DNA of 64,000 nucleotides, taken from an uncultured Eubacteriales bacterium. Lineage in GTDB: Bacteria; Bacillota; Clostridia; Christensenellales; CAG-138. The position numbers were made by a program, and so were the translations under genes. Positions within the stretch are counted from its first letter, which is position 1. Each line of letters starts with the position of its first letter. Below, piece by piece: positions 1-43,424 of the stretch. The notes below the pieces were generated by a model. That model was given only the letters and a program-made list of their open reading frames with translations, searched no databases and had not been told where the DNA came from. Location of the stretch: NCBI GenBank assembly GCA_902768795.1, contig CACXMS010000007.1, forward strand, positions 1 through 64,000. Direction: 5' to 3'.

Positions 1-83
1 ATGGCCGCCAAAAGTACCCAGACCGTATCCAGTCCGCTAATTCCGCTCTCCATAGCGCTAACGCTTTCAATAATCTCTTCCAT
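1..83 (-). CDS. amt: Ammonium transporter, N-terminal fragment (runs off window)
   Basis: Only the first 27 codons are visible, reading leftward from an ATG at 83. After a short polar start the peptide reads SGLDTVWVLLAA, the usual beginning of the first membrane helix of Amt/MEP ammonium channels. The call rests mostly on context: a P-II family fragment lies 46 bp upstream on the same strand, and glnK-amtB is a very conserved gene pair. Amt conducts ammonium across the membrane and P-II plugs it when nitrogen is plentiful. No ribosome-binding site sits at the usual distance, so Met-11 is an alternative start. The rest of the gene is outside the window. Confidence 0.6.
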   Translation of the reverse strand, partial: MEEIIESVSAMESGISGLDTVWVLLAA

Positions 84-129
84 TTTAGTAATGTTTTTCA
101 GTTATACTTTCCTTTTTTGTCTTTCACAG

Positions 130-375
130 TTATTTCTTGTCTGCAAGGACGGAGTCTCCGTGTTCTCCCGTTCGGATTGACCAGGTGTCATCGACAGGGC
201 TTACGAATATACGTCCGTCTCCTACCTCACCGGTGCGACCTGCCTTCATGATGGCGTCAATCGCCGGCTTGACGAACTGGTCACGGCAGATGATCGTAAT
301 CTCGATTCGCGAGATGATATCAGTACTGTACATGACACCACGGTAGATCCTGTCTTCACGGTCCTGACCGATGGC
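130..375 (-). pseudogene. P-II nitrogen regulator, 5'-truncated
   Basis: Reading leftward from about 375 to the TAA at 130-132, the peptide contains the second half of a P-II protein. It has the end of the T-loop (IYRGVMY, with the conserved Tyr), the core strand RIEITIICRD, and the nucleotide-binding and C-terminal motifs RTGEVGDGRIFV and IRTGEHG. P-II proteins sense ATP/ADP and 2-oxoglutarate and gate Amt channels. The N-terminal strand and helix are missing: upstream of about 375 the frame becomes nonsense and the DNA belongs to a gene on the other strand. The piece is therefore a rearrangement remnant or an assembly join. It precedes the Amt fragment, as in glnK-amtB. Confidence 0.75.
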
Positions 376-813
376 ATGAACCTGTATGAATACTTTTATT
401 GGATGGAAAAGGATGGATGGCAGGTTGAGGAAATTCAAATGCTGCAGATCGAAATGCCGTGCATCTTCCGTCTCAGAAAGGCAAATGAGACGATCCTTGT
501 ATCCGCAGGATTGGATTATCGTCCGGTTCCGTTTGGCGATTACTACGTCGAAGGATATGTCCGATACACAGGTCGCAAGGTGCAATCCTGGGCAGGTTAT
601 ACGCCGAAGGATAATACAATTGCGGAGAATTATACGCTCCGGAAAGGACAAAGCAGCGCCTATGTTTTCGGCGCGCCAGGGTACTCTCCCTCTTCGCTGT
701 GTCACTTCTATTTTCTCGATGACTGCCGCGTAGTCGGTATTCAAACCGACTATATCACGATTGAGGAAGATAAAATTGAAATATACGATGCGCTGACCGG
801 TGAAATCAACTAA
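376..813 (+). CDS. Hypothetical protein, probably a 5'-truncated remnant
   Basis: The plus strand is open up to the TAA at 811-813 and has protein-like composition from about codon 376 onward: rich in Tyr and Trp, with motifs such as FGDYYVEGYVRYTG and FGAPGYSPSS and a regular beta-strand pattern. I do not recognise the family. The first ATG, at 376, lies right at the point where the opposite-strand P-II match ends, and the frame stays open further upstream only because it is antisense to P-II. The most economical reading is a fusion of two broken genes head to head, both having lost their 5' ends. No ribosome-binding site precedes 376. ATG 403 is another possible start. Confidence 0.45.
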   Translation: MNLYEYFYWMEKDGWQVEEIQMLQIEMPCIFRLRKANETILVSAGLDYRPVPFGDYYVEGYVRYTGRKVQSWAGYTPKDNTIAENYTLRKGQSSAYVFGAPGYSPSSLCHFYFLDDCRVVGIQTDYITIEEDKIEIYDALTGEIN

Positions 814-870
814 TCCCTTGCAGACAGACAAGACGCAGAACAATTGTTTTTTCAATCATATCGCCCAAGG

Positions 871-891
871 CATTGTGAGACAGTCACAATG
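871..891. repeat. Perfect 8-bp inverted repeat
   Basis: CATTGTGA, five bases, TCACAATG. It lies in the non-coding stretch after the gene remnant ending at 813. There is no T-run, so it is more likely an operator or repeat-element piece than a terminator. The rest of 814-998 shows nothing recognisable. Confidence 0.4.
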
Positions 892-998
892 ATCATTCGA
901 GCATGGGATTATACAATTGATGGAATTATTAGTGTTCTTTTATTGAATGCTTTTTGATAACGACAATAAAGTTTCTTTCTCGGAAGGTAAAAAGAAAT

Positions 999-1033
999 CG
1001 AGCGGTGATAACCAAATCCGTTATCACCACTCG
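999..1033 (-). terminator. Hairpin following the displaced tRNA-Leu 3' end
   Basis: Arms 999-1012 and 1020-1033 pair over 14 bp with one G-U. On the minus strand the hairpin is followed by a T-rich tract. It lies just after the duplicated tRNA 3' end at 1037-1056, as a terminator would after an intact tRNA gene. Confidence 0.5.
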
Positions 1034-1036
1034 ACA

Positions 1037-1056
1037 TGGTGCGATTGGCGGGATTT
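1037..1056 (-). repeat. Duplicated tRNA-Leu 3' end (att-like 20-bp direct repeat)
   Basis: tggtgcgattggcgggattt is identical to 1232-1251, which is the 3' end of the intact tRNA-Leu including CCA, the acceptor strand and part of the T-arm. Identity stops abruptly after 20 bp. A displaced tRNA 3' end is what site-specific integration into a tRNA gene leaves behind. Confidence 0.65.
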
Positions 1057-1200
1057 CTTTGCGGCGGTGGATATCGGACAGGTTTGCTTGTGCTTCGCAC
1101 CGCGCATCCCGTCCTGCCGCAAAGCCGCCTCGCTGCAAAATACCGCACCGCGGTGTTTTGCAGCCGCTCGGTCAAATCCCTTCCTTTCCAAAACCAAATA
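1057..1200. repeat. Palindromic insert between the tRNA 3'-end copies
   Basis: The segment between the two 20-bp repeats is made of inverted repeats and has no convincing gene. CTTTGCGGC at 1057-1065 pairs with GCCGCAAAG at 1116-1124. CTGCAAAATACCGC at 1133-1146 pairs with 1150-1163 (14 bp, one G-U). The perfect hairpin at 1201-1227 follows. Apparent reading frames across it are by-products of these palindromes. It resembles a miniature non-autonomous element or a cluster of extragenic palindromes. Confidence 0.5.
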
Positions 1201-1227
1201 CAATACCCACCCGAGGGGTGGGTATTG
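1201..1227 (-). terminator. Terminator hairpin of the tRNA-Leu gene
   Basis: CAATACCCACCC and GGGTGGGTATTG form a perfect 12-bp stem around GAG, 5 bp past the tRNA CCA end. The following tract on the minus strand is only moderately T-rich (TATTTGGTTTTGG). Confidence 0.6.
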
Positions 1228-1231
1228 TGTT

Positions 1232-1314
1232 TGGTGCGATTGGCGGGATTTGAACCCGCAAGCTTTCGCCGACAGATTTTAAGTCTGTTGTGTATGCCGT
1301 TCCACCACAATCGC
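1232..1314 (-). tRNA. tRNA-Leu (anticodon TAA), CCA encoded
   Basis: An 83-nt class II tRNA on the minus strand. The acceptor stem pairs GCGATTG with CAATCGC. The anticodon arm is ACAGA-CTTAAAA-TCTGT, with anticodon TAA. There is a long variable arm and the T-arm motif GGTTCAAATCC. The A discriminator and CCA are encoded at 1232-1235. It decodes UUA and, by wobble, UUG. A consensus promoter lies just upstream and a hairpin just downstream, so it is probably a single-gene unit. Its 3' 20 bp are duplicated at 1037-1056. Confidence 0.95.
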
Positions 1315-26600: not shown

Positions 26601-28394
26601 TTATTTCAAAATCATGCGAAGGATCGCCGCTGCGTCGCGGCCGTCCACTACGCCGTCCCTGTTCAGATCGGCGCGCCGGAACTGCTCATCCTTCAGTTCA
26701 ATCAATCCAAGCCAATGCTGCATGACAAGCTGCGCGTCCGCTGTCGTTACGCCGTTCACGCCGTCCACATCCCCTGCATTCGGATCGGGATCTGGGGATA
26801 CCGTGGGCTCCGGGGATTCTGTCGGTTCCGGGGAGGCCGTCGGTTCCGGGGTTTCTGTGGGTTCCGGGGAGGCCGTCGGTTCCGGGGTTTCTGTCGGTTC
26901 CGGGGAGGCCGTCGGTTCCGGGGTTTCTGTGGGTTCCGGGGAGGCCGTCGGTTCCGGGGTTTCCGTCGGCTCCGGGGACGCTGTGGACTCCGGCGATGCT
27001 GTCGGCTCCGGGGTTTCTGTCGGTTCCGGGGTTTCAGCTGCGGGCGTCGGCGTCGGATCGGGTTCAGGGCCGGTATAGGTGAAGCTGAAATCGGCCGTCG
27101 ACGGGATCACGTTTCCGGAAGCGTCGTACAGATCGGCGCCGGAATAATAAAACTTCAGAATATCGACGTAGGAATAACCCTGCCTGGCCATCACTCCGGC
27201 GCCGCGATGCGACAGACCGACGCGGTTTCCCTTGCTCTCGCCGAACACGAGCACCCATTTTTGCGCTTCGGTCCGTACAACGAAAGAGACGGTTCCCGAC
27301 GCGGAGACGCCGCCGCCGGATTTCAGTTCGCCCGGCGTAAACGATGCGGTTGCCTGACGGTACTCTCCCGCCTTTGTACGCACGTTCATCGTAATCGAAA
27401 TCTGCGTCTGCGGCGCAAGATCTTTGGGATAACGGCTTGTTCCGTTCGGGTTCGCAGGATCATACAGGCCGCTCATTGCGACAATACTCTCCACGGTATC
27501 GACGGATTCGCCGAGCGCGGCTTCGGCAAGGGAACGAAAATATGCGTACAGCTTGTCGGAAAGTGAGGACGGGTCCGCCCCGTTGACAGTCACCGTCACG
27601 TTTTTCGACGAGCCCATCAGATCAAACGGATCGTATCCGTAAGAATACACCGGATCGGTCGCTCCGCCCCAGTGGATCGTCGGGGTGATGATCTGGCCGC
27701 CGTTTGCCGTGGTGTAATACGTTTTTACGACCTTCCCGTTATACAGCAGCGTGTTCTCCCACACCGCGTCCACCGCGGCGATCGAATTGACGTCCTCCGC
27801 GACGTAGCCGTGATACAGCTGGGACTTCGCCGTATCATAAACGTCAAAGTCTTCTTTGGTTCGGGCAGCGACCTCGGCCAGAGCAAAGCATTTGGCACAG
27901 ATCGCTTCGACCTTCAACTGCTCCGCCGGAGAGCTGTCGCTCATTTCGCCGGAAACAACGCCGTACAGGTATTCGCGAATGCCGATGTCGTTGACGACGC
28001 AAAGCTTGCCGCCGTCGCTGTAGAAAATGAGATCGCCGAGATATGTCCGCAGTGTATTCTGTCCTGCGTTCATCAGCGTCAGATTCGCTTCGTCTTTATC
28101 CGCTTCAAGGCGCACAACGCGCACGGGATTTGTGCTTGCGGCGAGCATGCCTTTCCCGGAATGCGATACGGTGATCGTCCCGTTATTGATCGAAGCGGTC
28201 AAGGTTCCGTCCGTAAATTCCGTGTCGCCGACCGAATAGGTTCCCTTCACGGTGACGTCCACCTGTGCGGCGCCTTCCGTGCCGAGCAGAACACGAACGG
28301 TTGCCGGAGCTGTTTCCTCCGCTTCGGTATGCCGCAGCATCGGAAGCGCGGCGAGCATCAGCAGAGCCAGCGCCAGCGCGATCCGTTTTCTCAT
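26601..28394 (-). CDS. Secreted SpoIID/LytB-domain protein with PT-repeat linker and dockerin
   Basis: A 597-residue secreted protein. The signal peptide is at 1-25 (MRKRIALALALLMLAALPML). The SpoIID/LytB domain is at about 100-400, with YLYGVVSGEMSDSSPAEQLKVEAI and catalytic-region motifs TYYTTANGGQ and LSHRGAGVMA.QGYSY. A Pro/Thr/Glu/Ser linker (about 455-540) is built of near-identical 12-residue units such as TPEPTASPEPTE. The C-terminal type I dockerin pair is GDVDGVNGVTTADAQLVMQ and ADLNRDGVVDGRDAAAILRMI. SpoIID is a lytic transglycosylase acting on stem-less glycan. A dockerin on it is unusual. The start at 28394 has GAGAGGAGGG before it. Confidence 0.85.
   Translation of the reverse strand: MRKRIALALALLMLAALPMLRHTEAEETAPATVRVLLGTEGAAQVDVTVKGTYSVGDTEFTDGTLTASINNGTITVSHSGKGMLAASTNPVRVVRLEADKDEANLTLMNAGQNTLRTYLGDLIFYSDGGKLCVVNDIGIREYLYGVVSGEMSDSSPAEQLKVEAICAKCFALAEVAARTKEDFDVYDTAKSQLYHGYVAEDVNSIAAVDAVWENTLLYNGKVVKTYYTTANGGQIITPTIHWGGATDPVYSYGYDPFDLMGSSKNVTVTVNGADPSSLSDKLYAYFRSLAEAALGESVDTVESIVAMSGLYDPANPNGTSRYPKDLAPQTQISITMNVRTKAGEYRQATASFTPGELKSGGGVSASGTVSFVVRTEAQKWVLVFGESKGNRVGLSHRGAGVMARQGYSYVDILKFYYSGADLYDASGNVIPSTADFSFTYTGPEPDPTPTPAAETPEPTETPEPTASPESTASPEPTETPEPTASPEPTETPEPTASPEPTETPEPTASPEPTETPEPTASPEPTESPEPTVSPDPDPNAGDVDGVNGVTTADAQLVMQHWLGLIELKDEQFRRADLNRDGVVDGRDAAAILRMILK
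26775..27056 (-). repeat. 36-bp coding tandem repeat (PT-rich linker)
   Basis: About four to seven near-identical 36-bp units within the SpoIID-dockerin gene, each encoding TPEPTASPEPTE or a one-residue variant. Their near-identity suggests recent slippage or unequal recombination, and copy number may vary between strains. Confidence 0.8.
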
Positions 28395-43103: not shown

Positions 43104-43147
43104 ACGCATCCCTCCGCTCTCATGGTATGCGGGAAACGATAACAAAA

Positions 43148-43424
43148 GAACGGAACCGACGGTTCCGTTCCAAGACTGTCAATAAAGGGGTCAGATCATT
43201 TTCGACGATAGAAAGCAAAGAAAACTTGTATGTAGGAACGGCCGCTTCGAGGCCGTTTCATATATCTATTCGTCGAAAATTAGCCGGTTTCTCGCCCTCA
43301 CGATAGCGTCAGTATACGTTTCGGGCAAGAATCCCGGCTTCTGAACACCCTTCTTGGCAGTCTGCTCAGCGTGTCAAAAGAATTTTTGACACGCTGAGAA
43401 CGGAACCGACGGTTCCGTTCCAAG
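43148..43424. repeat. Mosaic of palindromic repeats between dac-like gene and pnp
   Basis: A 27-bp unit containing GAACGGAACCG-A-CGGTTCCGTTC occurs identically at 43148-43174 and 43398-43424. Between the copies lies a long stem-loop: ATTTTCGACGA with TTCGTCGAAAAT, enclosing AACGGCC/GGCCGTT. A perfect 15-bp hairpin with arms CTCAGCGTGTCAAAA and TTTTGACACGCTGAG (43365-43398) follows. The last module and the phrase gactgtcaataaa recur at 53801-53854. No coding sequence is evident. The hairpin next to pnp may also end its transcript. Confidence 0.75.

Follow-up and report, generated by a model that had tools for sequence, protein, structure and literature searches.

Repeats in the tyrT operon of E. 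coli were described decades ago, and we know of no accepted origin or function for them. Short palindromic units of the REP/IS200 type carry an internal guide that pairs with the target, and tRNA positions 57-76 form a usual tRNA att block. A tandem G.A motif has been found by covariation analysis in RtT, the RNA associated with the tyrT repeats (PMC7657543), and casposons, which use a Cas1 integrase, insert at tRNA 3' ends with a duplication of 14-15 bp (PMC6977970). A literature search on tRNA-targeted palindromic units in bacteria, whose scope did not extend to the older tyrT papers, returned nothing matching the locus described here. This locus consists of a tRNA-Leu(TAA) gene followed by a 195-base unit, which belongs to a large repeat family that had not been filed before.

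The tRNA-Leu(TAA) locus

In the 64,000-nucleotide stretch of DNA that was analysed (the window), the 20-mer TGGTGCGATTGGCGGGATTT occurs exactly at both 1037-1056 and 1232-1251, with a spacing of 195 bp and an insert of 175 bp between the copies. This recurrence of the last 20 bp of tRNA-Leu(TAA), reported in an earlier note on the sequence, is thus confirmed; simple arithmetic puts the chance of an exact 20-mer within a few hundred bases at about 1e-10. The features of the locus are:

1232-1314, minus strand: tRNA-Leu(TAA), the host gene (ARAGORN; Rfam RF00005 at 60.6 bits)
1232-1251, minus strand: T, positions 57-76 of tRNA-Leu(TAA)
1193-1235, minus strand: first terminator-like hairpin, located at the unit's left end and extending into the CCA end of the tRNA (inverted repeat of 20 nt, 95% complementary)
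1172-1180, minus strand: T', GGGATTTGA, antisense of tRNA-Leu(TAA) positions 55-63 (9-nt perfect match to the local tRNA)
1128-1171, minus strand: hairpin P2 with the tandem G.A motif (consensus structure, changes on both sides of pairs)
1057-1124, minus strand: hairpin P3, CTTTGCGGC ... GCCGCAAAG with an inner hairpin (consensus structure, changes on both sides of pairs)
1037-1056, minus strand: T'', which repeats tRNA positions 57-76 directly as a 20-nt copy with CCA at its end (exact repeat)
973-1036, minus strand: left end of a probable large-serine-recombinase element, consisting of an attL half-site, TGTCGAGTGGTGATAACGGATTT, and a terminator hairpin, and abutting T'' (92-94% identity with the ends of elements that lie behind other sites)

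Both terminator-like hairpins proposed in the earlier note are real, with inverted repeats at 1193-1212/1216-1235 (95% complementary) and 998-1012/1020-1034 (93%), and a further one lies at 1132-1146/1150-1164 (93%). The DNA between the 20-bp copies, which the note had called palindromes only, is nearly so, with short unpaired joints left over. The minus strand of 985-1240 has a folding energy of -127 kcal/mol (z = -9.2), far better than shuffled sequence, and the first 7 nt of T'' pair with T' to form helix P1. Made of hairpins, the 175-bp insert is too short for an integrase gene, and an Rfam scan of the region with E up to 5 returned the tRNA and otherwise only chance matches. A hairpin at the place of 1193-1235 is also seen in other copies of the family. 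Three things go beyond the earlier description, namely the 9-nt T-arm antisense at 1172-1180, the finding that the whole unit belongs to a repeat family, and the homology of 973-1036 to the ends of larger mobile elements.

The second hairpin had been taken for the displaced native terminator. In the window, 999-1036 is instead probably the attL half-site of a large-serine-recombinase element inserted at the T'' copy, because of the offset of its motif, the recombinase gene found beside such a half-site, and the 92-94% identity of window positions 973-1040 to element ends behind other sites. Serine integrases have their recognition motif shifted outwards by 5 bp in attP relative to attB, and attP is a palindrome of about 50 bp (PMC3783163). 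Several genomes carry TGTCGAGTGGTGATAACGGATTT or something close to it behind the CCA of a tRNA-Arg, -Leu or -Met gene, with half-sites at window 1013-1036 and at loci L002 and L003. AAATCCGTTATCAACACTCGTACCA ends elements elsewhere and, joined to TGTCGAGTGGTGATAACGGATTT, gives a near-palindrome of 48 bp; from the start of the motif to the CCA end there are 25 nt in the element versus 20 nt in the tRNA, and both the palindrome and this offset agree with a serine-integrase attP. In window 1-998, where the contig starts at position 1, no recombinase gene was recognised; the one beside such a half-site lies elsewhere in the same genome (G000:C9:872-2665, locus L137), encodes a 597-aa large serine recombinase (PF00239, PF07508, DUF4368), and is next to an attL-like half-site at tRNA-Leu(CAA). 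Given this spread of the half-site over genes for three kinds of tRNA, the 3' ends of many tRNAs seem to be targets of this recombinase family.

Two other repeats were observed in the window. At 26752-27067 there is an 18-bp tandem repeat with twelve register-matched copies (reference stretch 118 nt), possibly encoding a six-residue protein repeat, and identical 28-bp palindromic sequences lie 250 bp apart at 43147-43174 and 43397-43424.

Distribution and anatomy of the repeat family

The search of related genomes that the earlier note had suggested uncovered a repeat family behind 20 tRNA isoacceptors. Most of the other genus genomes contain matches to the 175-bp insert, and a tRNA gene is present in most of the loci fetched. 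With a covariance model built from 19 copies (R1), we found 56 places in 21 of 23 genus genomes, and matches in 37 of 61 genomes and 16 of 26 sampled genera of the bacterial family, with at most 20 copies per genome, often in tandem; inside one genus the copy number spans 0 to 20. Among sister genomes, G101 has 20 copies, G066 has 17 and G091 has none. All of these genomes are MAGs or draft assemblies. The exact core pattern was matched by 18 stretches in 84,980 species genomes, all of them Clostridia/Clostridiales/Bacillota MAGs, about half named as ruminant samples and one labelled Christensenella sp., and by none in IMG/VR. A broader model (R2), run on 399 genomes of the phylum with strict filters that weak relatives can escape, matched the window's own genome alone.

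Read from the tRNA, the order of the unit is CCA, terminator hairpin, short spacer, T', P2 with its tandem G.A motif, P3, and T'' ending in CCA. Full-length cores of the main subtype measure 144 nt in nearly all copies, and this near-constant length does not fit the tiny remnant that the earlier note had envisaged as one possibility; individual copies do decay and truncate. In set A1, 26 of 44 pairs have changed on both sides, and in helix P1 all 7 pairs are Watson-Crick in 18 of 19 copies, the remaining copy having a single G.U. In set A2 (63 family-wide copies), 43 of 44 pairs have changed on both sides and 93.5% of cells are paired, counts that lean towards structure because A2 was fitted to the model; its covariation score was reached by no shuffle. 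In the window's own genome, T' is found at 4 of 42 tRNA genes: the Leu(TAA) gene of this locus, Thr(GGT), Glu(CTC), whose T'' is a 20/20 match, and Ser(GGA), which lies at the end of a contig. The unit at tRNA-Thr(GGT) (L012; G000:C3:51753-52097) is diverged and split by roughly 180 bp of unrelated sequence.

Tailoring, probable mobility and possible origin

T' is a stretch of 7-11 nt antisense to the T-arm of the local tRNA. Within the genus, T' agrees with the local tRNA at all seven positions from 57 to 63 in 38 of 39 tRNA-adjacent units, and it usually goes on matching over 9-11 nt. Across the fetched loci, a perfect T' heptamer starts 42-58 nt past CCA at 74 of 148 tRNA genes (20 isoacceptors, 13 different heptamers), a fraction that is not an occupancy rate because the loci were chosen by model and fetched mostly for holding units, while the heptamer of a different tRNA is found 0.98 times on average. 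At tRNA-Trp, T' matches 11 nt (positions 53-63), more than T'' contains, so that the tRNA itself is the likelier source of T'. Some family members also have the reverse complement of the acceptor end behind the terminator, such as CTCCACCA-hairpin-TGGTGGAG at tRNA-Ala. Every tRNA-adjacent unit with a full T'' matches its host tRNA. In the sister genomes G066 and G101, units with interiors 93-95% identical stand behind different tRNAs and differ in T' and T'', for example GGGACTC/GAGTCCC at Gly(TCC) versus AGGATTT/AAATCCT at the Arg(ACG) locus. Co-change in situ is seen at Leu(TAA), where the G012 subtype has AAATCCC in the tRNA with GGGATTTGA, and G003 and G006 have GAATCCC with GGGATTCGA.

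Synteny around tRNA-Leu(TAA) is kept throughout the genus, and both empty and occupied sites can be compared. In G007, TCAAAGAAACCTCTTTTGTC lies directly 3' of tRNA-Leu(TAA) as the native terminator, which is the empty site anticipated in the earlier note; in the occupied site of G011, the displaced 20-nt copy comes first and a sequence similar to TCAAAGAAACCTCTTTTGTC after it. The match is shorter in G012, where the first 12 nt of the flank resemble TCAAAGAAACCTCTTTTGTC. This pair of sites (G007 vs G011) bears out the proposal of a non-autonomous palindromic unit that uses tRNA 3' ends as its site, keeps the gene intact and displaces the old end. Three species share a Leu(CAA)-type unit at 98.5-99.5% identity although the flanks downstream of it differ, and an orthologous neighbour gene of this unit is 76-79% identical in the same three species. 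We infer that the unit is mobile and non-autonomous. Copies away from tRNA genes, whose wide occurrence would have counted against such a site, are few, and they adjoin mobile-element ends or carry a tRNA-derived end. Apparent off-tRNA mobility at L052, L054 and L059 was re-read as displacement by larger elements.

Two candidate enzymes were set aside. A Y1 transposase was not found in the unit carriers G000 (the window's own genome), G092 and G089, all incomplete MAGs, and its presence shows no correlation with unit copy number; it was rejected as the mover on both grounds. The tyrosine recombinase examined in G000 is XerC-like and conserved, and its gene has a housekeeping context. Other insertions were seen at these sites. 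Behind tRNA-Leu(TAA) in L134, L129, L130 and L131, a second palindromic insert ("type B") is stacked beside the studied unit; it starts with CGTCGYCGCG, has its own terminator, and in L134 ends in AAATCCGTTATCAACACTCGCACCA. The serine recombinase gene at L141:6661-8136 (G021:C59) has its end precisely at a displaced unit, whose first bases supply the gene's TAG stop codon.

Our preferred reading, held with slightly better than even confidence, is that the feature is a copy of a non-autonomous, structured, RtT-like repeat family that inserts precisely after the tRNA CCA. The unit brings its own terminator hairpin, so that the tRNA keeps a terminator, and has as its distal end a 20-nt copy (T'') of host positions 57-76. 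Its spread would involve copying of the end of the target tRNA, with T'' arising as a 20-bp duplication, T' arising from fold-back copying or from rapid correction and selection of the T'/T'' palindrome, and an enzyme acting in trans; pairing of T' with the T-arm may direct or stabilise insertion. Recombination at att sites alone would carry the donor's ends, and plain target-site duplication makes no T', so that neither explains the unit alone. The tRNA-integration layout recognised in the earlier note is largely right, but incomplete, since plain attB/attR integration would not make T'. The re-tailoring could also be post-insertion selection and not part of insertion. More tentatively, and with less than even confidence, the units may represent a new element class in which insertion is guided by T-arm pairing and the element's own T' and T'' are rewritten from the landing tRNA; such a class may extend to distant phyla, where the tyrT/RtT repeats would represent it, and its movement may depend on a template-copying (fold-back or reverse-transcription-like) mechanism.

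A functional RNA trailer, a regulatory or processing RNA kept by selection and set free from read-through transcripts of the tRNA as in E. coli RtT, appears unlikely to us, although several observations speak for it. T' would alternate between pairing with the T-arm (1:2) and with T'' (2:3), keeping T', T'' and the tRNA in step, as the in-situ co-change of tRNA and T' at Leu(TAA) (G012 vs G003/G006) and the strong covariation in A2 (43/44 pairs) would suggest, and E. coli RtT is annotated as a small RNA. G.U and A.C cells in the units number 73:82 over all columns, and 27:10 in columns with at least 90% Watson-Crick pairs; the all-column ratio had suggested a DNA-level reading, which was dropped on the ratio in these well-aligned columns. 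The latter excess favours some RNA-level constraint, as a modest sense-strand signal, yet it is far below that in the tRNA stems of the same loci (45:1). Also against an RNA trailer, a strong terminator stands ahead of the unit, and copies decay, truncate and range from 0 to 20 in one genus.

Still less probable is that the unit is passive cargo, a cis-mobilisable element which any integrase with a tRNA 3' end as attB could excise, move or accrete, with T' as a by-product of palindrome correction. The unit would be open to such integrases because two copies of the tRNA 3' end flank it as direct copies of 57-76, and larger elements do separate the tRNA from the unit at L052 and L059 and immediately follow T'' in the window; conservative recombination would, however, import the donor's T'' and T', whereas the tRNA-adjacent units with a full T'' all match their host. 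We give very little weight to T'' as a decoy attachment site that draws tRNA-targeting elements off the essential tRNA gene: an end of a serine-recombinase element abuts T'' in the window and in G011, but at L052 and L059 other elements have still gone into the tRNA end proper, displacing the unit, and T' is left unexplained. Decay of a tandem tRNA gene, of which the 3' end alone would remain at 1037-1056, is refuted by the repeat family, as one interior sits behind many different tRNAs, the unit is unlike the 5' part of a tRNA, and a complete second tRNA at that place was found in no relative examined.

Comparison with known systems

The family stands closest to the 178-bp repeats of the E. 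coli K-12 tyrT operon (RtT; rttR, RF00391), which likewise lie downstream of a tRNA, in tandem, and form hairpins. The E. coli tyrTV repeats end in tRNA-Tyr positions 58-76, and the Clostridia units in 57-76; the former contain GGGGAAGGAT, antisense of tRNA-Tyr 59-68, about 58 nt past CCA, and T' of the latter falls on 55-63. The tandem G.A motif of RtT is also present in P2 of the Clostridia units. These units differ from RtT in sequence, in standing behind 20 isoacceptors and in starting with a strong intrinsic terminator. In six genus genomes, RF00391 scored at best 15.5 bits against a gathering cut-off of 45, so that the unit is not filed as a member of RF00391. When R2 was run on 2.6 kb of E. 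coli, the three tyrTV repeats were its best matches (E 0.018-0.065), which is suggestive only. The layout of the unit, and not a model score, is what groups it with the tyrT/RtT repeats.

Parts of this layout are also seen in unrelated sequences from other families of the order. A T''-like copy is found there at 5 of 55 tRNAs; the one at tRNA-Ile (L347) is different in kind, being a short tandem repeat. One tRNA-Thr locus (L353) has TTTGAACCCGT, antisense of positions 49-59, together with a 25-nt copy, another (L338) has tandem units, and a tRNA-Lys locus (L352) has a 13-nt T' without a copy. It may be a widespread layout.

Tyrosine-recombinase elements that integrate into tRNA genes (attB from T-loop to CCA) share with the unit the same identity block, the intact gene and the displaced old end, whereas the unit is only 195 bp long, has no integrase gene and carries its own tailored antisense. 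Casposons also insert at tRNA 3' ends with a duplication, but the unit has a 20-nt copy, ends that are not inverted, and no genes. REP/IS200-type units are similarly short, palindromic and non-autonomous, and the pairing of their internal guide with the target resembles that of T'; they differ in that the Y1 transposase is missing from G000 and uncorrelated with copy number.

In unrelated bacteria, the layout of the E. coli tyrT repeats recurs in a large family whose units stand behind at least 20 isoacceptors, which makes the tyrT puzzle testable. It follows a simple quantitative rule, an antisense of T-arm positions 55-63 and a copy of 57-76, both fitted to the local tRNA. If the proposed explanation is true, a short element would re-tailor its ends between targets, unlike conservative site-specific recombination or cut-and-paste transposition.
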